Shown in pieces: positions 1 through 12,577 of a stretch of DNA of 12,577 nt. The notes beneath the pieces were generated by a model, which did no database searches, was not told where the DNA came from, and saw nothing but the letters and a program-made list of their open reading frames with translations. This stretch comes from Armatimonadota bacterium. Lineage in GTDB: Bacteria; Armatimonadota; Zipacnadia; Zipacnadales; UBA11051. How positions within the stretch are numbered: the stretch's first letter is position 1; every line of letters begins with the position of its first letter. The position numbers were made by a program, and so were the translations under genes. The stretch lies in NCBI GenBank assembly GCA_003542955.1, contig DPJP01000094.1, positions 595-13,171 of the forward strand. Reading direction: 5' to 3'.

Positions 1-2287
1 CCTTCTCCGGCGGCAGGTAGATGTTCTGCAGCAGCGCGGCCGTGGCATCAGCGTACTTCTGCTCACCGGTCATGCTATAGGCCATTGCCGACAGGATCAG
101 CGGCAGGTACCCGGCATCGTCCCATGCGCTCATGAAAACCGGGTAGAGGGGGTCCATACTCCTGATGATGGCCTCGCGCAGGGCCTGCGAGTCCTCCGGC
201 GGGGCGGCGTAGTAGTAGTGCATGAGGCTCTTGGAGGTGTTCGAGACAAAGCGGAAGTGCCGCCTGGTGACAAAGCGCCACTCGCTGTCCGGCGCGACCT
301 GCAGTTCCGCCGCCAGCAACTCGTCGGCCCGCTGCTTCCAATGCTCATCTCCGGTGATCTCCCAGTAGCGGATCAGCCCTCCGATGCGGTCCTCGTTCTC
401 CGCCGAGACTCCCGTGTCATGGTAGCGGGCATACTCACCGATAACATCCAGCGCGCGCTCGTCGCCGGTGAGCAGGTAGTAGTCTATCGCCCCGTGGGTG
501 GCCGTCCCGTAGCCACGCACGCCGTTGCCCCAGTGCTGCTGATCGTGCCGGTGGCCGCCGCCGACATGCCCCGGCTCCGCCGCGCAGTGGTGGCATGTAT
601 CGACATCCATCACGTGCCTGGCCATCGCCTCGGCCATCAGCCAGGCGCCGTAGTCGCCGCTGCGCAGATACTGGATGAACAAGGAATCCGTCAGCGTCCC
701 GTCGTTGTTCAGCCAGCCGACATATCCCCGGCTGCACCATGCGTTCTCGCCCCGGTAGCCGTAGTGGCTCGGCGTGTTGTAGCCATGGAACAGCGTATCG
801 CCGAAGTCGATCATGCCGTCCCAGTGGAATGCCGCCTGGTTCTGCCCGATCCACGCCACGCCCACATCGAGCAGGCCCTCCAGACGCGGGTACGCGCCCC
901 GGTTCGCGGGCGCGAATGGCCCGAAGGCAAGGGTCTCTGAGACATACCGGGGCGAGCACTCGAGCACCAACGGGGCGTTCAACTCCGCCACCATCTGCGG
1001 CCCGACATCTTCGGATGCCGGGCCGAAGCGCAGCGCGAACTCGTGCGTCACGGCAACACCCTCGCCGCCGTACTCCCACAGGCTCAGATCGTAGTGGTAA
1101 GTGTTTTCGATGTAATCATAGCGGCGCCGGAAGTCGAGGACCTTGCCGCCTTCCTCCGGCCACAGGTAGAACGTGACGCCGTCGCCCCCGATCTCAAGCT
1201 GCTTCGGGTGCATCTGCCAGAAGTTGCGCACACCCAGGTGCATCGCCCACTGCGCGCTCGACAGCCGTGCCCACCCGGCGGCCCGGGTGCCTTTGGCCTG
1301 CGGCTCGCTGTTGCGGGTGATGGTGTAGCCCACGCTCTTATCCTGCGTGTACGGGGCGAGATGGTAGATCTTCTCCGGGCCGGTCTCGACCATCGACATG
1401 GTCACACCGGGGCGCAGGTCGCCCGCGTGCCGCGCCTGGCCGCCGAGAGACCACGTGGCGCCCGGTTGCGCGGAGGGGAACTGGAGGTACATCGAGCGGA
1501 TGAAGTCCTCGTGCGGCTTCCCCGCGTAGATGAAGGTCGGGAGGATGCGCAGCTCGGAGCTGCCTGCCACTGCATGGGCGCGGATGATGTACTGGATCAG
1601 CCTGCGGCCCTCGTCATTGACCAGCCAGCCGCTGAGCTTGATCACCGCGCGCAGGTCGTTGGCGCTCTCGACCTCGGCCGCGTACCCGCCCTCGGCGCTA
1701 GCCGAGAAGCTCTCGCGCGGCCCGCCCGCGGCATCGCGCAGCCAGTTCTCCTCCTGCGGCTCCCCGGGCGGCGTGTGTTCGACCTCGCAGATGAACTCCC
1801 CCGGCTCAGAGACGACCTGGGTATCATGGGCGCCATCGCCATCGAGGTCCGCCCATGCCGCCGCGGGCAGCCCGAACTTCGTCTTCGAGAAGATGAACAT
1901 CCCCGCGCCGGTGTTGACGACGATCTCGTCCTCGTCCTCCCCGACACTCACCCGGCGCAGACACTCCGACTGCTCGCCGGGCGTGAGCGTCAGCGCGAGG
2001 CTGCCATTCGCCGGCAAGTCCACCTGCGTATCGAGCAGGAGGAACTTGACGCTGCCGTCATGCCAGCGCGAAATCGGCCGCACGCGGCAGGGGAGCGCAG
2101 TGCCGGCCGCATCGACCAGGCCCGCGGATGCGCACTCGGGGAGCGCGCCGAGGGCAAACGGCACACCGCCGCGCACCGGCGCCGCCGTCCGCGCAACGCC
2201 GCCATGCTCCCGAACCGTCAGACTGACCGGTGCGGCGAGGCTCAGACCGGCCACGGCGACAGCAAGCACGATCATCTCTATACGCAT
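1..2287 (-). CDS. Secreted PcRGLX/YetA-like (exo-rhamnogalacturonan lyase-like) protein, 3' end missing
   Basis: The minus-strand frame stays open from 2287 to the left edge (762 residues, no stop), so the C-terminus is missing. Residues 1-19 form a Sec signal peptide: a short charged start, a hydrophobic MIVLAVAVAGLSLAA core and a likely cut after SLAA, so the protein is exported. Residues about 24-110 match the N-terminal RIFT-barrel domain of the PcRGLX/YetA family (G-V-P-F-A-L-G, then RWHDGSVKFLLLD at 74-86). Residues about 200-421 resemble the second domain and end in THEFALRF. From about 465 on, helical-toroid-like sequence contains a His/Cys-rich stretch at 565-587 and GYGTATHGAIDYYLLTGD. 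An inserted D-x-D-x-D-G-x-x-D loop (D147, D149, D151, D155) looks like a calcium site. Characterised relatives include a fungal exo-rhamnogalacturonan lyase (PL26), but many bacterial members are uncharacterised, so the substrate is inferred. The ATG at 2287 lies 7 bases from GGAG; an adjacent in-frame ATG at 2290 is also possible. It is divergent from the XRE-cupin gene. Confidence 0.85.
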   Translation of the reverse strand, partial: MRIEMIVLAVAVAGLSLAAPVSLTVREHGGVARTAAPVRGGVPFALGALPECASAGLVDAAGTALPCRVRPISRWHDGSVKFLLLDTQVDLPANGSLALTLTPGEQSECLRRVSVGEDEDEIVVNTGAGMFIFSKTKFGLPAAAWADLDGDGAHDTQVVSEPGEFICEVEHTPPGEPQEENWLRDAAGGPRESFSASAEGGYAAEVESANDLRAVIKLSGWLVNDEGRRLIQYIIRAHAVAGSSELRILPTFIYAGKPHEDFIRSMYLQFPSAQPGATWSLGGQARHAGDLRPGVTMSMVETGPEKIYHLAPYTQDKSVGYTITRNSEPQAKGTRAAGWARLSSAQWAMHLGVRNFWQMHPKQLEIGGDGVTFYLWPEEGGKVLDFRRRYDYIENTYHYDLSLWEYGGEGVAVTHEFALRFGPASEDVGPQMVAELNAPLVLECSPRYVSETLAFGPFAPANRGAYPRLEGLLDVGVAWIGQNQAAFHWDGMIDFGDTLFHGYNTPSHYGYRGENAWCSRGYVGWLNNDGTLTDSLFIQYLRSGDYGAWLMAEAMARHVMDVDTCHHCAAEPGHVGGGHRHDQQHWGNGVRGYGTATHGAIDYYLLTGDERALDVIGEYARYHDTGVSAENEDRIGGLIRYWEITGDEHWKQRADELLAAELQVAPDSEWRFVTRRHFRFVSNTSKSLMHYYYAAPPEDSQALREAIIRSMDPLYPVFMSAWDDAGYLPLILSAMAYSMTGEQKYADATAALLQNIYLPPEK

Positions 2288-2298: not shown

Positions 2299-2433
2299 AG
2301 TGACGGAATACGTCTTGCGATTCAGCTATTCGCTGCCAGGTGCTCCATTCCATTCACCGATGAGAAGGACGGACAACGGAAATCGCCGCTCAGGTCAGGC
2401 CCATGCCCCCTGTAATCCCCTTCCCGGTTGTGC

Positions 2434-2439
2434 TACAAT
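2434..2439 (+). promoter_or_regulatory. Possible -10 element of the XRE-cupin operon
   Basis: TACAAT differs from the TATAAT consensus at one base and would place transcription start near 2446, leaving a leader of about 45 bases before the ATG at 2493. No good -35 sits 16-18 bases upstream, so this is only a candidate; a regulator-dependent or non-standard promoter is possible. Confidence 0.25.
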
Positions 2440-2492
2440 CGGCAGCGCTGTTGTGCCTGGTCGTTGAGACTGTGCCCGAAGGGGCGAGAGCT

Positions 2493-3047
2493 ATGGCCGT
2501 GGACCTGAAGCAGATTGCCAGCCGCATCCGCGCGCTGCGCGAAATCGCGGGCGTCTCGGTCGAGACCGCCGCACGCGAGTTCGGCATCCCCGTTGAGACC
2601 TACCGCCAGTACGAGAGCGGTGAAACCGACATGCCCGTGACTTTCCTCACCCAGGTGGCCGACCGCTTCGACGTCGAGCTGACAGCCATCCTCACGGGAG
2701 ATGAGCCGAGGCTGCACACCTATGCGCCCGTCCGCAAGGGCCACGGTGTCGCGGTGCAACGCCGCGCAGCATACGACTATATCGATCTCGCCTACAACTT
2801 CGCGGACAAGGACGTAGACGTCTTCCTCGTCACCGTCCAGCCGTCTGACTCCCCGTCGCCCCCCTCGCTCAACACCCATCCCGGGCAGGAGTTCGAGTAC
2901 GTGCTCGAGGGCACCGTCAAGATCACGATCGACGGCCACGAGGTCGTACTCGAGGAGGGTGACAGTATCTACTTCAACGCACGCCTCCCGCACGGCATGG
3001 TCGCGGAGGGCGGAAAGCCCGCGCGTTTCATTGCCGTGGTCACCTGA
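2493..3047 (+). CDS. XRE-family transcriptional regulator with C-terminal cupin domain
   Basis: This 184-residue protein has the usual length of the XRE-cupin family. Residues about 5-65 are a Cro/C1-type helix-turn-helix ([20 protein letters not shown], then [12 protein letters not shown]). Residues about 108-184 are a cupin beta barrel with H129-x3-E133 followed by G140 and a second motif with [13 protein letters not shown] (H167). Proteins of this type bind DNA and sense a small molecule or metal-bound ligand in the cupin pocket. The frame is open further upstream to an ATG at 2403, but the homologous sequence begins at the ATG at 2493, and the upstream residues resemble no HTH sequence. 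The Shine-Dalgarno before 2493 is weak (GGGGCGAGAG). The gene leads a same-strand cluster with an AMP-forming acyl-CoA ligase 50 bases downstream; to my knowledge this regulator-ligase pairing recurs in other anaerobic bacteria. It probably regulates its own operon and perhaps the divergent lyase-like gene (inference). Confidence 0.88.
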
Positions 3048-3097
3048 TCCAATCCACGCACAGACATCAGCTTCCACCTGACGGGAGGGCGCTCACA

Positions 3098-4759
3098 ATG
3101 CTCGAGAAGTACCTGTCCGCAACTGAGTTCTCCTCATACGAGGACTTCGCGTCGCGCTGCAGGATCGTCGTGCCGGACAACTTCAACTTCGCCTGCGATA
3201 TCGTTGACGAGTGGGCCCGCACCGAGCCCGACAAGCTCGCGCTGGTCTGGGAGGATGTCGAGGGCAACAGCCGCCGCTACACCTTCTCCGAACTCAAGGA
3301 GCAGGTGGACCGCACCTGCACGTGGCTCAAGCAGCTCGGCATCGGCAAGGGCGATTCGGTGATGCTGATTCTCAAGCGTCACTACGAGTACTGGTTCTGC
3401 CTGCTTGCACTGCACAAGATCGGGGCCATCGCGATTCCGGCCACGCACCTGCTGACCGCCAAGGACATCATCTACCGCTGCAATGCCGCCGACATCCGCA
3501 TGATCATCTCCGTCGATGAAGAGCGCGTTCTGCAAGCGGTCGATGACGCCCAGCCGTCGGCCGGGACGCTCCAGCACAAGGCCGTCGTGCGCGGGCAGCG
3601 CGCCGGATGGCTCGACTACACCACGGATGCGGCGAACGCCTCGGCCGACTTCCCCCGCCCCACGGGCGACGAGGCGACCTGCAACGACGATATCATGCTG
3701 CTCTACTTCACCTCCGGCACCACGGGAATGCCGAAGATGGTCACCCAGGACTTCACCTACCCGCTGGGCCACATCCTCACCGCGGCCTTCTGGCAGAACG
3801 TCCGCAACGACGGCCTGCACCTGACCGTCTCTGACACCGGCTGGGCGAAGGCGGCCTGGGGGAAGATCTACGGTCAGTGGATCGCCGGGGCCTCGATCAT
3901 GGCCTACGACATGGAGCGCTTCGATCCCCACGAGTTGCTGGAGGTCGTGGTGCGCAACAAGGTCGTGACCTTCTGCGCACCGCCCACGGTCTACCGCTTC
4001 CTCATCAAGCACGACCTGAGCAAGTACGACCTGAGCAGCCTCGAGTACTGCGTTACCGCGGGCGAGCCGCTCAACCCGGAGGTCTATAACCGCTTCCTGG
4101 AGATGACCGGGCACCGCATCATGGAGGGCTTCGGGCAGACGGAGACCGTCGTCGCCCTGGCGACATTCCCCTGGGTCGAGCCGCGCCCCGGCTCGATGGG
4201 CAAGCCGTCCCCCGGCTACCACATCGACCTGCTTGACGATGAGGGCAACGTCTGCGAGGTTGGCGACGAGGGGCAGATCGTCATTCGCACGCACGAGGGC
4301 CGCCCCCCCGGCATGTTTGTCCACTACCATCGCGACGAGGAACTCACTCGCGCCATGTGGCATGACGACATCTACCGGACCGGCGACATGGCCTGGCGTG
4401 ATGAGGACGGCTACTACTGGTTCGTCGGCCGCGCCGATGACCTCATCAAGAGCTCCGGCTACCGCATCGGGCCGTTCGAGGTCGAGAGCGCACTGATGGA
4501 GCACCCGGCGGTGCTCGAGTGCGCGGTCACCGGCGTGCCCGATCCCGACCGAGGCCAGATCGTCAAGGCCACGATCATCCTCGCCCCCGGCTACGAGGCC
4601 GGCGCGACACTCGTCGATGAGCTTCAGGAGCACGTCAAACGCACCACGGCGCCCTACAAGTACCCGCGCCTGATCGAGTTCGTCACCGAGCTGCCCAAGA
4701 CGATCAGCGGCAAGATCCGCCGCGTCCAGATCCGCGAGGAGAACGGGCACATCGAGTAG
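3098..4759 (+). CDS. AMP-forming acyl-CoA synthetase (ACS/MACS-like)
   Basis: The 553-residue product is a full-length member of the ANL superfamily, which activates a carboxylic acid with ATP to an acyl-adenylate and then to acyl-CoA in the cytoplasm. Core motifs are intact: the phosphate-binding loop [11 protein letters not shown] at 203-213, GFGQTET at 344-350, YRTGD at 426-430, the hinge region [15 protein letters not shown] at 444-458, and PKTISGK at 533-539 whose Lys539 would be the adenylation lysine. The segment [19 protein letters not shown] (243-261) resembles short- and medium-chain (ACSM-like) acyl-CoA synthetases more than the longer acetyl-CoA synthetases of about 650 residues. 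The acid used cannot be read from the sequence. The ATG is preceded by GGGAGGG (3083-3089) with 8-base spacing. It lies 50 bases after the XRE-cupin gene and 31 bases before the glycosidase-like gene, so co-transcription is likely. Confidence 0.93.
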
Positions 4760-4790
4760 CGCCGCAGCCGGCGACACGGAGGGGATACCC

Positions 4791-6812
4791 ATGGCACGAT
4801 GCGACTGGTTCACAAAGCACATCCGGCAGGTGCACATGGACTTTCACATGCCGGAGTTCCCACCGGAGGCGATCAAGAGCTTCCGCGCCGATGAGTTCGT
4901 GGCTCATCTGCTCCACGGGCGCGTCAACATGGTCGCCCTGTTCGCCAAATGCCACTTCGGCAACTCGTTCTACAACACCACAGTCGGCCACAAGCACAGC
5001 GGGCTGCCGAATGACTTCCTCATGGAGGCCGCCGTCGCATGCCGAGAAGCCGGCATCCGCACATTGGCATACTACTCCCTTTGTTGCGATATCCGTGTCT
5101 GCTGGGAGCATGACCACTGGCGCGCGACAGAGGAGGACGGGACGCCGACGCCCACTACCGGCTGCTGGGGGCCAGTCTGCATTAACACCCCCTATCGCGA
5201 GGAGCTGGTGCTGCCGCAGCTTCAGGAAATCGCGCAGGGCTACCCGGTGGATGGCTTTTTCATAGATATCCCGATGGTCGCCAAGTGCTACTGCCGCTAC
5301 TGCAAGCAGAAGTTCCAGGCCATGTATGGCTATGAACTGACCCCGCAGCTGCCGGAGAACGAGCGCCAGGCGTTCCTCTACAACTCCACGGGAAGACTGC
5401 TGCGCGAACTGCGGGCCATCTGTGAGGAGCACAACCCCGAGCTGGTAATCGTGACTAACCGCTCGGGCCGCATCGACGCCCCGCAGACATTCCGCGAACT
5501 CAATGATTGCGGCGTGTGGGAGAGCCAGCCGCACTCGAACTACCTCTCGCATAGCTTCGCCGCGCGCACGGTGCGCACGTACAACTACCCCGTGCAGGTG
5601 ATGTCGGTCCGCTTCTACCAGGGCTGGGGCGACCTGACGCTCAAGCCGGCCGCCCAGATGACAACCGAGTTCGCCGCGATGATCGGCAACGGTTGTGTAG
5701 CAAGCTCCGGCGACCAGGTCAATGTCGACGGCACGCTTCAGCCCGCCGTCTACGACATGTTCGACAGGGCGTTCGGCTTCGTCCAGCAGCGTGAGGAGCT
5801 ACTCGCGGAGGCCGCTACCGTGCGGCATGCCGCCCTGCTCGCACCCGTACCGCGCCGCGACCACCCGGCTCCCGACGCCCTGGGCCCGACCATGCAGGGC
5901 GCCCACAAAGCCCTTGTCGAGAGCCACGTGCAGTTCGACATACTGCCGTCACTGGATCTGGGCAAGCTCTCCGACTACCGCTACGTGGTGCTGAGCGGCT
6001 CACCGGAGTACGCCCCCGAGGTCTATCCGGCTCTCCGTGACTGGGTATCCGCCGGCGGCACGCTGGTGGCCTGCGGCACCAGCCTGCTGCGAGATGGCGG
6101 CGTATTCGAGCTGCAGGATGTGCTGGGGATCGAGTTCCTGGAGCCTTCCGTGTTCTCGGTCAGCCATTTCAGGCCGCGGCCGGAGGTGCGGGGCGAGGCC
6201 GATGACCTGCCGCTGCAGTGCCGGGGCCGCAGCCTCAAGGCCATCCCCCGCGGGGCGCAGGTGCTGGCCGACTACATCTACCCGCAGATCGAGACGACAA
6301 AGGACTACGCGTTCCGCCACACCTGCCCACCTCCCTCACTGCATTCGTCGCCCTACCCTTTCGCCACGATCAACGATTTCGGCGACGGGCGCGGCGTCTA
6401 CATCGCAGGCTCGATCTTCCAGATCTACTGGGAGACCAACCATCACTGGCTGCGGCAGTTCGTGAGCGGGCTGTGGGATTACATCGACGCGGAGCCGCCG
6501 TACCGCGTCGACGCCTCCGGCATCATCGAGAGCAACCTGATGCGACTCTCGGATGGCGACCTGCTGCTGAACCTGATCCACTACCAGGTCGGCCACCAGG
6601 GCGCGGCCAGCGCGATCCCCTCCATCGAGCGGGTGCACCCGCTACGCGGGCTCGCGTGTCAGGTGAAGGCCCCCGGCGCGACGGCAGTCATTCTCGAACC
6701 GCAAGGCGAGTCCATCCCATTCAAGCTGGATGGCGACTACGCAACCTTTACCGTCCCTGAAATCGAGTACCTGGGCATGGTGAGGGTGGTTGCCCGGCAG
6801 GGGGCGTCGTGA
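4791..6812 (+). CDS. GHL6-type putative glycosidase with GATase-like (beta-galactosidase trimerisation-like) domain
   Basis: This 673-residue protein has no signal peptide or membrane segment and is probably cytoplasmic. Residues about 10-330 form a TIM-barrel-type domain resembling hypothetical glycosyl hydrolase family GHL6: an N-terminal block around HGRVNMVALFAKCHFGNSFY, then DGFFIDI at 154-160 with Asp159 at a strand end where these families place a catalytic or substrate-binding acid, directly followed by the cysteine cluster CYCRYC at 166-171. Residues about 345-460 look like the class-I amidotransferase-like domain found in beta-galactosidase trimerisation regions (YRYVVLSGSPEYAPE, then WVSAGGTLVACGTS). 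Residues about 565-673 form a C-terminal beta domain. The substrate is unknown; an oligosaccharide or glycoside is expected from the family. The start is supported by GGAGGGG (4778-4784) with 6-base spacing. It is the third gene of the regulator-ligase cluster and is followed by a strong terminator-like hairpin. Confidence 0.85.
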   Translation: MARCDWFTKHIRQVHMDFHMPEFPPEAIKSFRADEFVAHLLHGRVNMVALFAKCHFGNSFYNTTVGHKHSGLPNDFLMEAAVACREAGIRTLAYYSLCCDIRVCWEHDHWRATEEDGTPTPTTGCWGPVCINTPYREELVLPQLQEIAQGYPVDGFFIDIPMVAKCYCRYCKQKFQAMYGYELTPQLPENERQAFLYNSTGRLLRELRAICEEHNPELVIVTNRSGRIDAPQTFRELNDCGVWESQPHSNYLSHSFAARTVRTYNYPVQVMSVRFYQGWGDLTLKPAAQMTTEFAAMIGNGCVASSGDQVNVDGTLQPAVYDMFDRAFGFVQQREELLAEAATVRHAALLAPVPRRDHPAPDALGPTMQGAHKALVESHVQFDILPSLDLGKLSDYRYVVLSGSPEYAPEVYPALRDWVSAGGTLVACGTSLLRDGGVFELQDVLGIEFLEPSVFSVSHFRPRPEVRGEADDLPLQCRGRSLKAIPRGAQVLADYIYPQIETTKDYAFRHTCPPPSLHSSPYPFATINDFGDGRGVYIAGSIFQIYWETNHHWLRQFVSGLWDYIDAEPPYRVDASGIIESNLMRLSDGDLLLNLIHYQVGHQGAASAIPSIERVHPLRGLACQVKAPGATAVILEPQGESIPFKLDGDYATFTVPEIEYLGMVRVVARQGAS

Positions 6813-7908: not shown

Positions 7909-7923
7909 CTTCCTGCAATGCCA

Positions 7924-7930
7924 GGGAGAG
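7924..7930 (+). promoter_or_regulatory. Ribosome binding site fixing the start at 7937
   Basis: GGGAGAG lies 6 bases before the ATG at 7937, and the protein from that ATG begins with a clean signal peptide. This rejects the longer in-frame starts upstream. Confidence 0.65.
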
Positions 7931-7936
7931 TGCACG

Positions 7937-10273
7937 ATGAACAGGCTTGTTGCCGTCACGATGCTGGCCGCGGCCGCGACGCCGCTGTGTGCGCAGCGAG
8001 GGGAGGGCGTAGAGATGCAGAAAGGCGCTTCGGACCCGACGGTGCGGTGCGTCATCCAGGGCGTGCCGTGGATCGGCTTCTACCGTGGAACAGGCGCGCC
8101 CCAGGACGATCCCTTTCCCGGCTGTGTTCGGGCCATTCTCCAGTTCCGGGGCGAGGACCCCGGCATCAGCACGACGTCGGGCCGCAGCGACCCCTGGCAC
8201 AACGTCCACAAGCATGTGCTGGGCACATCCGGGCTGGCCTTCCGCCTCGGCTGGAATAGCGATGCCTGGGACTGGGACGCGCTTGAGCTCTGGGGCATGC
8301 CAGAAGACCCGGTGCCGGTCTTCCAGGACGGCCTGGAGTCCGTCGGATACTCGTGCGAGGTGATCCTGCGGCAGGACTTCGCCCGGTCAGTGGGCGTGGA
8401 GCAGGAGGTCGAGTATGACGAGGCGGCATTCCGCGAACGCACCATGGCGAGCATTCGCGCGGGGATGCCGGTCATCGGCATCGGTGTTGTCGGCCCGCCA
8501 GATTGCTGCCTGATCACCGGCTATGACGATGGCGGGCAGGTGCTCATCGGGCGCAGCTATTTCCAGAATGAGGGGGACTTCGCGGCGGGGCTCGAGTTCG
8601 AGGAAGCTGCCCCCGGCGACCCCGATCTCTACTTCCGCAAACGCGACTGGTTCGCCGACACGCGGGGGCTGGTCGTCGTCAACGAAAAGCAGCCGCGCCC
8701 ATCAGAGCGTGAGATCCGCGTGAAGGCGCTCCGGCGGGGGCTCGAGATCATGCGCACACCCGTGGTGCGCGGGCACTGGGCGGGTCAGGCGGCCTTCACC
8801 ATGTGGGCCGATACGCTGCTCAGGGATGACCTGTTCACAGGCGACGACGCAACGGCACGGCGCAGGCGGCTTGATGTCCACCACAGCGCCGGGGGTGCGC
8901 TCGCGGAGGCGAGGGCATACGGCGGGGACTTCCTCCGAGGTCTGGCCGGCGCCGAGCCGGCAGCCGCGGGGGAGCTGCTCGAGGCCGCCAGGTGCTTCAA
9001 CGACGAGCACGACCTCGTCTGGGCCATCTGGGAGTTCACCGGAGGGATGATCACCAACGACGTCGGCGCCGAGACGTTCGACAAGGGCCACATCCGGCGC
9101 CGCATCGTGCCGCTCATCCGCATTGCGCGCGGACGCGACGCCGAGGCAGCCGAGCACATCCAGCGCGCCCTCGAACTGATGGGCGACGGCACCTCCGGCA
9201 CGCAGACACCGGGCACCTTCGGCCGCGTGGTGCTCGACGGCGTCCCGCAGATCGGCTACCACGTGCACTCGTGCCCATTCGCCGGCTCCCTGTGCGCCGT
9301 GCTCGAGTACCTGGGTGACCCCGTCGACTACGACTACCTGATGGGCGCTTGTGGCGCGGCCTTCCGCCGACTCTGGAACCGCGACGACGGCGGCAACGTG
9401 GACCTGGGCTACCTGGCGCCGAAGCCGTTTGATCTCGCAGCCGATGCCACCGGCTACGAACTGCGCGTAGTGCGGCGAGACAAGGCACGGATGATCGAGG
9501 CCATCCAGCGAAGCATCGCCCGCGGCCGCCCTGTCATCGGCTTTGGCCTCATAGGCCCGCCGGAGGCCGGCGTCATCACCGGCTATAGCAGCGGCGGCGA
9601 GGTCCTGCACGGCTGGAGCTACTTCCAGCCCGCCGAGTTGAGAGACTACTACGAGGACAGCGGATGGTTCGAGAAGTTCGACCGCTTCTCCCAGGCCCCG
9701 GACGCCGGCCTCGGCCCCGTCGATACGGAGCCGGTGGGGCTCGTCCTCGTCGGCGACAGGATGAGCCGGGGGATGTCGGAACGGGATGCCACGATCTGCT
9801 CACTCGAGTACGCCATCGACCTCGCGCGTAAGCCCGGGCGCCCACACCTGCCGGACCACGTCAGCGGCCTGGCTGCGTATGAAGCCTGGGCCGCGGCGTT
9901 GGAGGTGGATGCCGACTACCCGGCCGATGACGCAGAGGCGATGGAGCTGCGGATCATGGTCCATGGCGACCAGTGCACGATGCTGAGCGAGCGCCGGAGC
10001 GCCGCGGCCTACCTCCGGCGTGTGGCTGATGCCGAGCCGGATGCCGCCGAGCATCTGCGCGCCGCCGCCGACCTCTATGACCAAGTTGCCGACATCAACC
10101 CCAGCCTGTGGTTCTGGGGCGGAGGCGGCCCCACCATCGCTGATGCGCTCAAGGACCCGCAGAAGCGACGCGAGATGGCCGGGCACGTTCGCACAGCCGC
10201 CGCGAAGGAAACGCAGGCTGTGGAGCACCTGGAGCAGGCCCTTGAAGCCATCAAGGCCGCTCCCGCCCAGTAG
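7937..10273 (+). CDS. Secreted tandem-module protein with papain/C39/BtrH_N-like repeats, function unknown
   Basis: The 778-residue product starts with a Sec signal peptide (MNRLVAVTMLAAAATPLCAQ, likely cut after LCA; the lipobox is poor). The rest is two copies of one module, about 38-415 and 431-772. Each copy has an alpha/beta domain (GVPxIG; PFxG then a helix; SGLAFRLGWN or CGAAFRRLWN; then PVIGxGxxGPPxxxxITGY, GG, VL, SYFQ) followed by a helical domain (GLAAYEAW or GQAAFTMW; an Ala-rich helix pair; a C-terminal Ala/Glu/His helix). The conserved block at 176-210 is identical to 530-564 at 22 of 35 positions. The alpha/beta part resembles the papain-like fold of C39-type and BtrH_N domains, from memory and shape only. 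Possible nucleophile Cys453 in copy 2 aligns with Arg65 in copy 1, where a Cys sits two residues earlier (Cys63). The His expected before the ITGY strand in C39 enzymes is absent in both copies. Peptidase, acyltransferase or non-enzymatic binding roles are all open. It lies 24 bases before the Fpg-like gene. Confidence 0.82.
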   Translation: MNRLVAVTMLAAAATPLCAQRGEGVEMQKGASDPTVRCVIQGVPWIGFYRGTGAPQDDPFPGCVRAILQFRGEDPGISTTSGRSDPWHNVHKHVLGTSGLAFRLGWNSDAWDWDALELWGMPEDPVPVFQDGLESVGYSCEVILRQDFARSVGVEQEVEYDEAAFRERTMASIRAGMPVIGIGVVGPPDCCLITGYDDGGQVLIGRSYFQNEGDFAAGLEFEEAAPGDPDLYFRKRDWFADTRGLVVVNEKQPRPSEREIRVKALRRGLEIMRTPVVRGHWAGQAAFTMWADTLLRDDLFTGDDATARRRRLDVHHSAGGALAEARAYGGDFLRGLAGAEPAAAGELLEAARCFNDEHDLVWAIWEFTGGMITNDVGAETFDKGHIRRRIVPLIRIARGRDAEAAEHIQRALELMGDGTSGTQTPGTFGRVVLDGVPQIGYHVHSCPFAGSLCAVLEYLGDPVDYDYLMGACGAAFRRLWNRDDGGNVDLGYLAPKPFDLAADATGYELRVVRRDKARMIEAIQRSIARGRPVIGFGLIGPPEAGVITGYSSGGEVLHGWSYFQPAELRDYYEDSGWFEKFDRFSQAPDAGLGPVDTEPVGLVLVGDRMSRGMSERDATICSLEYAIDLARKPGRPHLPDHVSGLAAYEAWAAALEVDADYPADDAEAMELRIMVHGDQCTMLSERRSAAAYLRRVADAEPDAAEHLRAAADLYDQVADINPSLWFWGGGGPTIADALKDPQKRREMAGHVRTAAAKETQAVEHLEQALEAIKAAPAQ
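8048..9181 (+). repeat. Module 1 of the intragenic tandem duplication
   Basis: Residues about 38-415 of the secreted protein. Compared with module 2 it carries roughly 40 extra residues in its first half (around 75-90 and 110-130). The best conserved segment is 8462-8566. Confidence 0.8.
9227..10252 (+). repeat. Module 2 of the intragenic tandem duplication
   Basis: Residues about 431-772 of the secreted protein. The segment 9524-9628 is the counterpart of 8462-8566 (22 of 35 encoded residues identical). The helical second halves also align (for example VADAEPDAAEHLRAAADLYD with LAGAEPAAAGELLEAARCFN). The DNA has diverged clearly, so the duplication is old. Confidence 0.8.
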
Positions 10274-10297: not shown

Positions 10298-11161
10298 ATG
10301 GCACTGTCCTACCCCGAGTGCGTCTGCCTGCGCGAGCAGATGGAAGAGGCCCTCGTCGGCAAGCAGATCGAGAGCATCTGGGTCCTCGACATCACCCAGG
10401 TCGAGGGGAGCTGGCGCTTCGGCGCCATCAACCAGCCGCCTGCAGTGTTCGATCTGCGGCTGCGCGGGGCGACTATCTGCGCGGCGGAGAGCGTCGCGAG
10501 CAGCGTGTTCCTCCCCACCGACACCAACCATAGCCTTGTGTTGGGCTACATCTCAGGCAGGGCGCTCTATCACCAGCCCGGCGAGGGCCCGCCCGAGCGA
10601 AGTTGCCTGCGCGTTTGCTTCACCGACGAGAGTCATCTGTCCGTGGCGATCTCGCTGTGGGGACTCATCAGGGTGCTCGACGATGCGGAGAGAAGGCGGT
10701 ATGTGGAGAAGTGGTATGGGCGCGGCATTGAGCCACTCTCAGACGCCTACACCTGGGAGGGCTTCCGCGACGCAGCAGCCGCCATCGACGACCGGGGCCT
10801 GAGCGCCAAGAAGTTCCTGCATGCCTTCGAGCCCGGCTACTACCTGAGCGGTCTGGATGCCGGCTATGCCATCGAGGTGCTCCATCGCGCCTGTATCCAC
10901 CCCAAGCGGGCGCTCGTCTCCCTGAGCACGGATGAGTTGCGGGCCTGCTGCGAGTGCGTCAACACCGTCTGCGAGGAGGCGGTCGCCCGGGGCGGTCGCT
11001 ACAGCGATGGGGACCTCTACGGACGGCCGGGCGGCTTCATTCCGCGCGCATGCGAGGCTACTCTGGGCACGCCCTGCCTCGAGTGCGGAACACCGCTAGT
11101 GAAGATCAAGTTCGAGGGCGGGACCTCCTACCTCTGCCCAACCTGCCAGCCGGCGCCGTAG
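10298..11161 (+). CDS. Divergent Fpg/Nei-like DNA glycosylase-family protein, key residues altered
   Basis: The 287-residue product has the layout of the formamidopyrimidine-DNA glycosylase/endonuclease VIII family: an N-terminal beta domain (about 1-135), a helix-two-turn-helix region (about 165-235, with ACIHPKRALVSLS at 198-210), and a C-terminal zinc finger C260-x2-C263-x16-C280-x2-C283 ending in CPTCQ. In classical enzymes the processed N-terminus is the catalytic Pro followed by Glu. Here the Pro-Glu pair is at 6-7 (MALSYPE), so the nucleophile is not terminal unless the protein is trimmed. The GxGNxY loop that contacts DNA is GLDAGY (about 184-189), losing the Asn, and the zinc-finger Arg is Gly. 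Related bacterial proteins starting MIELPE form, as I recall, a paralogous group of unclear function. DNA binding is plausible, glycosylase activity doubtful. GAGG (10287-10290) lies 7 bases before the ATG, and the gene follows the secreted protein by 24 bases. Confidence 0.85.
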   Translation: MALSYPECVCLREQMEEALVGKQIESIWVLDITQVEGSWRFGAINQPPAVFDLRLRGATICAAESVASSVFLPTDTNHSLVLGYISGRALYHQPGEGPPERSCLRVCFTDESHLSVAISLWGLIRVLDDAERRRYVEKWYGRGIEPLSDAYTWEGFRDAAAAIDDRGLSAKKFLHAFEPGYYLSGLDAGYAIEVLHRACIHPKRALVSLSTDELRACCECVNTVCEEAVARGGRYSDGDLYGRPGGFIPRACEATLGTPCLECGTPLVKIKFEGGTSYLCPTCQPAP

Positions 11162-11183: not shown

Positions 11184-12577
11184 CTACTCAGCCGCATCGG
11201 GATCGAACACCGGCTGCAGCTCGACGAAGTTGACCATCATCTGCTGGCCGACCGGGCCGCCCGGCGTGTCGACGTCGGCCCAATCGCTCAGCCTCAGTGT
11301 CGCGGTCTCTCCCTGCGCGCGAAACTGCAGCCAGTGATAGGTCATCCAGAAGCGATTTGACGTGCTGAACGGCTGCGGGCCGCGGGCGCTGCAGAACGGA
11401 TGGCTGAAGCCACCCGGCAGTACTTCGGCCCCATCCAGCCCAATCGACAGCACCTGCCGGTCCTTGCGGCTCGCACCCGCGGTGAGGTCCGCGTAATCCC
11501 CGGTAAAGACTTTCAACGAGTAGAGCCGGCCCGCTTCGAGCCCCTGCACCTGCTGGCTGAGCAGATTCGGAGCCTTCGCGTTGCGCGTGAGCAGGAGGAA
11601 CGTGTCGCCCATCGTGCCCACCGGGTAGCGCCCCTGAAGCTGGCCGTAGCCATCGAACTTCCCGGCGCTGACGCTGCCTTCCTCCGCCGGGGTCACCTGC
11701 CACTTCGCCATACCCTCCGCGAAGTCAGGGTCGGCTACATGGCACAGCTCGTACGGGTCGCCGAGCATCCTGTCGATCCTGCCCTCGATGCAGTAGTGGC
11801 GCAACAGCAGTGCCATGGTGTTGAGTATCTCTTCATCCACGTAGTTGGAGCGATACGGCTGCACACCCCACAGGCCGAACATCGACGGCTCGTTCGCGAG
11901 TACCTGCATCTGCATATCCAGGTGCACGCGGAAATCCGCCTGTGGGTAGCAGTTGGTGGTGCAGTACGGGAGATAGGAATACATCGGGGTGAAGATTGCC
12001 CGCCGCATCGAGCCCGGATAGGCCTGCTCCCATTCCGCGGCCACGCTATCGAAGCGCCCACGCATTGCAGCGAGGTTCTCCGCCTCGGTGGGCGCCTCGG
12101 GCTGGTAGACCTCGACAGAGAACGGCCAGCCGCTCCCCATCGACGTCTTCATCAGCAACTCCGCCGCCCCACTGCCGTACATGTTGACCGCGAACGGAAT
12201 CCACAGCTTCCCGGCGTAGGCGGGGTGCTCGGATGCTCTTGCGATGGAGAGCGCCGTCGTCAGGACGTTGGGTGTCGAGGGCTTGCCGGGTACGTACTCA
12301 TCGACCTGTACGCCGGAGAGCTTGTCGAGGGCGAAGCCCTCCCTCTCGGCCCATGCCGTCGGCTTGCCGGGGTTCAGCCACACATCGAGCATCGTCTCCG
12401 GAGTCCACTCGGTCTGGTCGATGAGGCCGGGCGCCTGCACGTTGCCAAGCCACATCCTCCCCTGCCCAAGCCACTCATCGCGCTCCGGAATGTCCACCTG
12501 CTGGCTCTCGATCGTGTTCGTGTTTGCCAGAGTGTGCTTGCCCAGCCGCTCCCAGCTGTTGCTGCCAAAGGGCGTGA
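11184..12577 (-). CDS. Uncharacterised probable TIM-barrel protein with C-terminal carbohydrate-binding-like domain, 5' end missing
   Basis: The minus-strand frame is open from the right edge to a TAG at 11186-11184, giving 463 visible residues. An internal GTG at 12497 could be read as a start, but the frame runs on upstream to the edge with sensible coding sequence, so the N-terminus is probably outside the window. Residues about 30-275 look like part of a TIM barrel: GVQVDEYVPG (88-97, acidic pair D92-E93 after a strand), KLWIPFAVNMYGSG, WPFSVEVYQPEAP, and FGLWGVQPYRSNYVDEEILN. Residues about 278-458 look like a CBM4/9-type beta sandwich (DPDFAEGMAKWQVTP; LLSQQVQGLEAGRLYSLKVF; a final strand MMVNFVELQPVFDPD). 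This pattern fits a secreted glycan-active enzyme, though no signal peptide can be seen here and I cannot name a glycoside hydrolase family. Its stop is only 22 bases from the stop of the convergent Fpg-like gene. Confidence 0.8.
   Translation of the reverse strand, partial: TPFGSNSWERLGKHTLANTNTIESQQVDIPERDEWLGQGRMWLGNVQAPGLIDQTEWTPETMLDVWLNPGKPTAWAEREGFALDKLSGVQVDEYVPGKPSTPNVLTTALSIARASEHPAYAGKLWIPFAVNMYGSGAAELLMKTSMGSGWPFSVEVYQPEAPTEAENLAAMRGRFDSVAAEWEQAYPGSMRRAIFTPMYSYLPYCTTNCYPQADFRVHLDMQMQVLANEPSMFGLWGVQPYRSNYVDEEILNTMALLLRHYCIEGRIDRMLGDPYELCHVADPDFAEGMAKWQVTPAEEGSVSAGKFDGYGQLQGRYPVGTMGDTFLLLTRNAKAPNLLSQQVQGLEAGRLYSLKVFTGDYADLTAGASRKDRQVLSIGLDGAEVLPGGFSHPFCSARGPQPFSTSNRFWMTYHWLQFRAQGETATLRLSDWADVDTPGGPVGQQMMVNFVELQPVFDPDAAE

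Follow-up and report, generated by a model that had tools for sequence, protein, structure and literature searches.

A predicted exported protein with two diverged modules of the BtrH/CcbD fold from an Armatimonadota bacterium, a candidate for small-molecule recognition

The locus and its two-module protein

The window analysed here, a stretch of 12,577 nucleotides from an Armatimonadota bacterium, contains an open reading frame (ORF) for a putatively exported protein, P0001, which is built from two papain-like modules and is preceded by an RBS-like AGGGAGA at positions 7923-7929 (Table 1). By eye, its N-terminus, MNRLVAVTMLAAAATPLCAQ, reads as a predicted Sec-type signal peptide. Residues 1-31 have pLDDT values below 50 in the full-length AlphaFold model (the source of all structure models used here), and similar leaders are found in some homologues (e.g., P0003, P0005 and P0010) and are missing from others (e.g., P0008 and P0017-P0026). 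Comparison of P0001 with Pfam and NCBIfam gave no match up to E = 1. Upstream, at 2403-6812 on the plus strand, lie three consecutive genes for an HTH-cupin regulator, an AMP-binding acyl-CoA synthetase-like protein and a GHL6 glycosidase-like protein. The Fpg/Nei-like gene that follows the module gene has its own Shine-Dalgarno-like sequence, GAGGTGA, and a further ORF on the minus strand (11184-12497), of 437 aa, lacks Pfam matches up to E = 1.

Table 1. Features of the two-module gene, its product and the adjacent gene, in window coordinates.
Feature	Residues	Position	Strand	Remark
ORF of the exported two-module protein (P0001)		7937..10273	+	778 aa
Predicted signal peptide	~1-20	7937..7996	+	read from sequence
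Copy 1 (type-1 module)	31-414	8027..9178	+	
Copy 1 subdomains	~38-252; ~257-414			papain-like alpha/beta; helical
Asp58, putative papain nucleophile slot of copy 1	58	8108..8110	+	precedes helix 59-71
Cys63, copy 1	63	8123..8125	+	within helix 1; aligned to Ser451
Asp189, putative papain histidine slot of copy 1	189	8501..8503	+	precedes strand 190-197
Linker	~415-428	9179..9220	+	pLDDT <50 at 419-427
Copy 2 (type-2 module)	429-778	9221..10270	+	
Copy 2 subdomains	~430-608; ~615-774			papain-like; helical
Cys446, putative nucleophile slot of copy 2, conserved	446	9272..9274	+	precedes helix 447-458; C101/S17, n=118
Cys453, copy 2	453	9293..9295	+	variable position
Glu543, putative papain histidine slot of copy 2	543	9563..9565	+	precedes strand 544-551; E 118/118
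His641, helical domain of copy 2	641	9857..9859	+	H in 118/118 one-module type-2 relatives
Fpg/Nei-like gene (H2TH and FPG zinc finger)		10298..11161	+	24 bases past the stop codon of the module gene

The original prediction of a duplicated module behind a single signal peptide agrees with the comparison of the two halves, residues 31-428 and 429-778, which align nearly end to end (37-415 with 430-772, 31% identity, E = 2e-35). In the models, both halves consist of an alpha/beta domain and, C-terminal to it, a helical bundle (full length, 28 sequences, mean pLDDT 85.2 and pTM 0.86; copy 1 alone, 32 sequences, mean pLDDT 91.0 and pTM 0.91), and the full-length pTM fits a defined arrangement of the halves. 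A tree of 278 modules places the two copies in separate clades (support of 0.66 on the copy 1 side and 0.999 on the copy 2 side), each of which also holds one-module proteins. Therefore, the copies are not sister duplicates; two module types, both old, are paired in the tandem. Three-module proteins exist as well (P0024, P0025 and P0027-P0029).

Predicted fold and active-site positions

Both modules can be assigned firmly, on the basis of their models, to the BtrH/CcbD/CtaG/AziU3 fold, that is, a papain-like alpha/beta domain joined to a helical domain. Fold searches with the models returned full-length matches to AziU3, CcbD and CtaG, and every one of the closest solved structures is that of an enzyme. 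At the level of sequence profiles, BtrH_N (PF14399) reaches type-2 modules below its cut-off of 29.7 bits (14.4 for P0026 and 12.7 for P0024). The profile A3, built from ten modules, and the profile A6, built from four TPR-fused relatives, matched at 98.6% (E = 9.5e-16, 310 columns); A6 leaves out L040, which is not TPR-fused and lies near the modules, and the value becomes 99.7% when L040 is included. One member of A6, L033, matches BtrH_N with E = 1.3e-5 and 25.8 bits, under the cut-off, and its reading frame scores 29.8 once neighbouring matches are summed. A model built from modules only matches the TPR relatives directly (L033 at 86 bits, L034 at 62 and L039 at 88), and the direct comparison of A3 with a profile of seven BtrH_N proteins (A2) gave 52% (E = 1.4e-4, 238 columns). 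The fold searches and the profile-profile comparison thus uphold the link to the papain-like/BtrH family that had been proposed; the predicted fold is papain-like and not an unrelated one.

In papain-like enzymes, the nucleophile lies just before helix 1 and the histidine at the start of the central strand. Assigning the equivalent slots from secondary structure, aligned ranges and conservation, we placed them at Cys446 and Glu543 in copy 2 (helix 1 at 447-458, strand at 544-551) and at Asp58 and Asp189 in copy 1 (helix at 59-71, strand at 190-197). In the fold-match ranges, residue 10 of CcbD and residue 3 of CtaG both fall at model residue 437, which would put Cys19 of CcbD near 446 and Cys11 of CtaG near 445 if the ranges are gap-free. 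Judged from sequence, neither copy has an intact Cys-His pair at the standard slots. The histidine of C39 peptidases had been reported as missing before the ITGY strand of both copies, and acidic residues indeed occupy both slots; given this assignment, the loss of the catalytic histidine is firm. The conserved motifs named in the earlier work are present in P0001, and our results support its view that the cleft is strongly conserved without being a standard protease site.

The cysteines, on the other hand, call for a different reading. Cys63 and Cys453 had been singled out as non-equivalent cysteines displaced by two positions. The underlying pairing of PFPGC with PFAGSLC is reproduced (Cys63 with Ser451, Cys453 with Arg65); both cysteines, however, occupy variable helix positions, 453 being mostly Tyr (74) or Phe (15) and 451 being Ser (81), Ala (23) or Thr (11) among 118 one-module relatives. 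The putative nucleophile slot is that of Cys446, which had been overlooked, and Asp58. Since position 446 is Cys or Ser in all 118 of these relatives and Asp in copy 1, the difference between the copies appears to be that copy 1 has lost the nucleophile, rather than that a cysteine has moved by two residues.

In these 118 type-2 relatives (334-453 aa), position 446 is Cys in 101 and Ser in 17, Glu543 and His641 are found in every sequence and His444 in 108, and several further polar residues are invariant. Across the 278 modules, which remain of 298 after identical sequences were dropped, 187 carry Cys or Ser at 446, and 184 of those 187 have Glu or Asp at 543. Position 543 is acidic in 253 of the 278 and His in a single one; five modules, including that one, have a His within two residues of it. 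It should be noted that 118 of the 278 stem from a single search, whose profile was mostly type-2; when they are set aside, Cys or Ser at 446 is found in 69 of the 160 remaining modules, which were cut from related proteins or loci with partial mutual repeats (six pairs among the 58 loci are probably the same contigs). The 261 representatives at 90% identity keep the pattern (Cys or Ser at 446 in 176, Glu or Asp at 543 in 173 of those, His543 in one), indicating that redundancy is not its cause, while common descent contributes. In two-module proteins, position 446 of the first module is Asp in 27 and Cys in 3 of 47, and that of the second is Cys in 32 and Ser in 3 of 46.

Relatives, fusions and gene neighbourhood

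The first protein search yielded 40 proteins and the module-profile search 294 matches, both scoring only the candidates with the most shared words; no precomputed Pfam domain was present among the 120 matches listed. At least 54 of 291 Armatimonadota genomes match the module, a lower bound because at most three candidates were scored in most genomes, and the host genome of P0001 encodes more relatives on five other contigs. Nineteen loci belong to Armatimonadota, Chloroflexota, Lentisphaerae, Phycisphaeraceae and one unclassified bacterium; a one-module relative, P0042, is from Caldilineaceae. The Phycisphaeraceae module protein (L020, 488-1912) has an N-terminal region with an LTEVQFALA motif and no Pfam match at E 0.01.

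Several relatives are fused to other domains. Six proteins combine an ECF sigma factor with a module (P0039, P0040, L106, L107, L114 and L123), the last four of them from genomes of three Armatimonadota families. P0041 joins M56/BlaR1 and Cass2 domains to two modules, P0160 joins a GyrI-like/Cass2 domain to modules, and TPR fusions are recognised by Pfam in L033 and by resemblance in L032 and L034-L039. Position 446 of the six sigma-fused modules is Cys in two, Ile in two, Val in one and Phe in one, with a Cys one residue later in three, and Glu543 is kept in five of the six. At L114 (6061-9913, plus strand), the sigma fusion and the two one-module ORFs directly after it share a strand and look like a single operon. 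The TPR proteins L032-L039, which are found in the genome of P0001, elsewhere in its genus and in further genera of that order, appear to be lipoproteins and have a BtrH_N-like module without the Cys. The catalytic Cys of BtrH_N we take to lie within an HC motif; among nine BtrH_N proteins of other Armatimonadota genomes (L045-L053), seven (L045-L051) have HYET at the HC site and therefore also seem to lack it.

PMC3426412 offers a precedent for the sigma fusions in ECF41, with a regulatory domain fused at the C-terminus of the sigma factor. In ECF41 and the six relatives alike, an ECF sigma factor is extended at its C-terminus, whereas P0001 has no sigma domain. The C-terminal domain of ECF41 is of another kind than the module. 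In the literature that we searched on BtrH/CcbD/CtaG/AziU3 and on ECF extensions, we found nothing on the module family, which does not prove it unpublished, and nothing on C-terminal extensions of ECF sigma factors in Armatimonadetes.

Among 58 module loci, no general neighbour emerged that would define an operon common to the exported tandems. Fpg-like genes lie near five of them (the window, L096, L120 and, in Chloroflexota, L010 and L012), which correspond to about four independent cases because L096/L120 and L010/L012 look like close pairs. Of the ten Armatimonadota Fpg-like genes closest to that of the window (E ≤4.4e-28), four adjoin a module gene, including the window's own, and one of the six unlinked genes lies at a contig end; none of 13 control genes from the next ranks is beside a module gene. 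One of these controls, L147, closely resembles the Chloroflexota Fpg-like gene (E = 1.9e-55) and has to be grouped with the linked genes, a point against the association. Overall, the association is suggestive but not general. The nucleophile of Fpg is Pro2, and the window's protein, which starts with MALSYPE, lacks it; its close relatives, some of which adjoin module genes in two phyla, seem to start with MIELPE, MIEYPE or MYELPE. Sulfatase-like genes are likewise found at 5 of the 58 loci (L010, L012, L020, L101 and L102), possibly by chance. At L010 and L012 the sulfatase is upstream of the module gene, and at L010 a DUF6144/V4R-like gene (2776-3312) separates the module gene from the Fpg-like gene.

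Ligand recognition, catalysis or scaffold

AziU3 acts as the partner of AziU2 and activates an amine, which displaces sulfate. Known from the AziU3/U2 complex of azinomycin biosynthesis (PDB 7WUW, 8GS1), it has the same fold as P0001 over the full length at 12-14% identity, and is a biosynthetic enzyme whereas P0001 is an exported tandem. The fold is shared with the lincosamide condensing enzymes CcbD/LmbD (PDB 7YN1, 7YN2, 9DKR) and with the closthioamide enzyme CtaG (PDB 9QVJ; variants C11A, H128A and D144N). For CcbD, PMC12945683 describes a Cys-His-Glu triad containing His131 and acyl groups that come from a carrier protein; for CtaG, the residues C11, H128 and D144 in the PDB titles suggest a Cys-His-Asp site. 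Relative to that description of CcbD, the modules depart in having a Cys/Ser and Glu/Asp pair, with Glu or Asp at the putative slot of His131, and a counterpart of His128 of CtaG is missing in the same way. BtrH_N, the butirosin acyltransferase family, is linked to the modules by profile-profile comparison, but P0001 lacks the catalytic histidine.

We suggest that P0001 probably recognises a small molecule. More specifically, we infer, with a rough probability of 0.48, that it is an exported intramolecular pseudo-dimer with a cleft for a specific small molecule, which it would bind outside the cytoplasm. This reading is favoured because relatives are fused to ECF sigma factors, to M56/BlaR1 with a GyrI-like domain and to TPR proteins, so that the module family would represent a ligand-recognition domain joined to ECF sigma factors and a BlaR1-type membrane receptor. 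Copy 2 would be the main binding half, retaining a nucleophile without the usual base, with Cys446 opposite Glu543 in place of His. Copy 1 would be a degenerate partner that shapes the site of copy 2 or, by analogy with the second, neighbouring monomer of CcbD, may complete it. Among the options listed in the original prediction, ligand binding is thus favoured by the sigma and BlaR1-like fusions, and copy 1 fits a pseudoenzyme; copy 2 keeps a conserved, putative nucleophile. Counting against ligand recognition, most of the listed relatives are free-standing rather than fused to a regulator, and the modules fused to sigma factors rank with the less conserved ones. In addition, the invariant Cys/Ser446 and polar residues of the type-2 relatives look like catalysis as much as binding, and the invariant His641 could replace the missing base.

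The conservation of the copy 2 site makes a rewired enzyme nearly as likely as ligand recognition. Under this explanation, which we regard as tentative yet serious, copy 2 would work through Cys446 (or Ser) and Glu543, perhaps with His641 or His444, in acyl or amide transfer or an AziU3-like substitution, and copy 1 would be a non-catalytic partner. Consistent with it, all four of these positions are conserved in the type-2 relatives, 446, 543 and 641 in each of the 118 and His444 in all but ten, and the closest solved structures are enzymes throughout; the sulfatase-like genes at 5 of 58 loci recall the chemistry of AziU3, although this may be chance. On the other hand, the standard slot is without His in 277 of 278 modules, and 18 modules with Cys446 and Asp543 that lack His444 also lack a conserved His641, so that no family-wide base is evident. 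Nor was a carrier protein found among the seven window ORFs run against Pfam; the AMP-binding acyl-CoA synthetase-like protein is encoded on the strand of the module gene, about 3 kb upstream of it and separated from it by other genes. Between binding and turnover lies a covalent one-shot sensor, for which BlaR1, which traps beta-lactams, provides the analogy: with Glu or Asp replacing His, Cys/Ser446 would accept an acyl or alkyl group from a reactive natural product without turnover. Such a trap, which we consider improbable, would be exported in P0001, joined elsewhere to ECF sigma or BlaR1-like proteins, and encoded in part together with a DNA-repair-like (Fpg) protein.

Alternatively, both copies might be inert scaffolds, dead papain-like domains that serve protein-protein contacts only, as such domains are described to do in PMC10318531. 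Modules of the copy 1 type have indeed lost the nucleophile, with 27 Asp and 3 Cys at position 446 among 47, but the many polar residues of copy 2 that are invariant in 118 relatives and the acidic residue at 543 in 253 of 278 modules make this explanation unlikely. An ordinary cysteine peptidase of the C39/papain type is less probable still: such peptidases share the alpha/beta fold with P0001, yet their Cys-His pair is not present in it, the His being missing at the slot in both copies, and the extra helical domain and the full-length matches to AziU3, CcbD and CtaG argue against a peptidase.

Based on these findings, the modules constitute a large family without a Pfam name, in which the fold of antibiotic-assembling transferases carries Cys or Ser with Glu or Asp where Cys and His are expected. 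As sensors, they would define a domain through which ECF sigma factors and BlaR1-like receptors bind ligands and which is kin to enzymes of natural-product biosynthesis; as enzymes, they would have an active site that is unusual for the papain fold. In either case, the concrete prediction concerns residues 446, 543 and 641.
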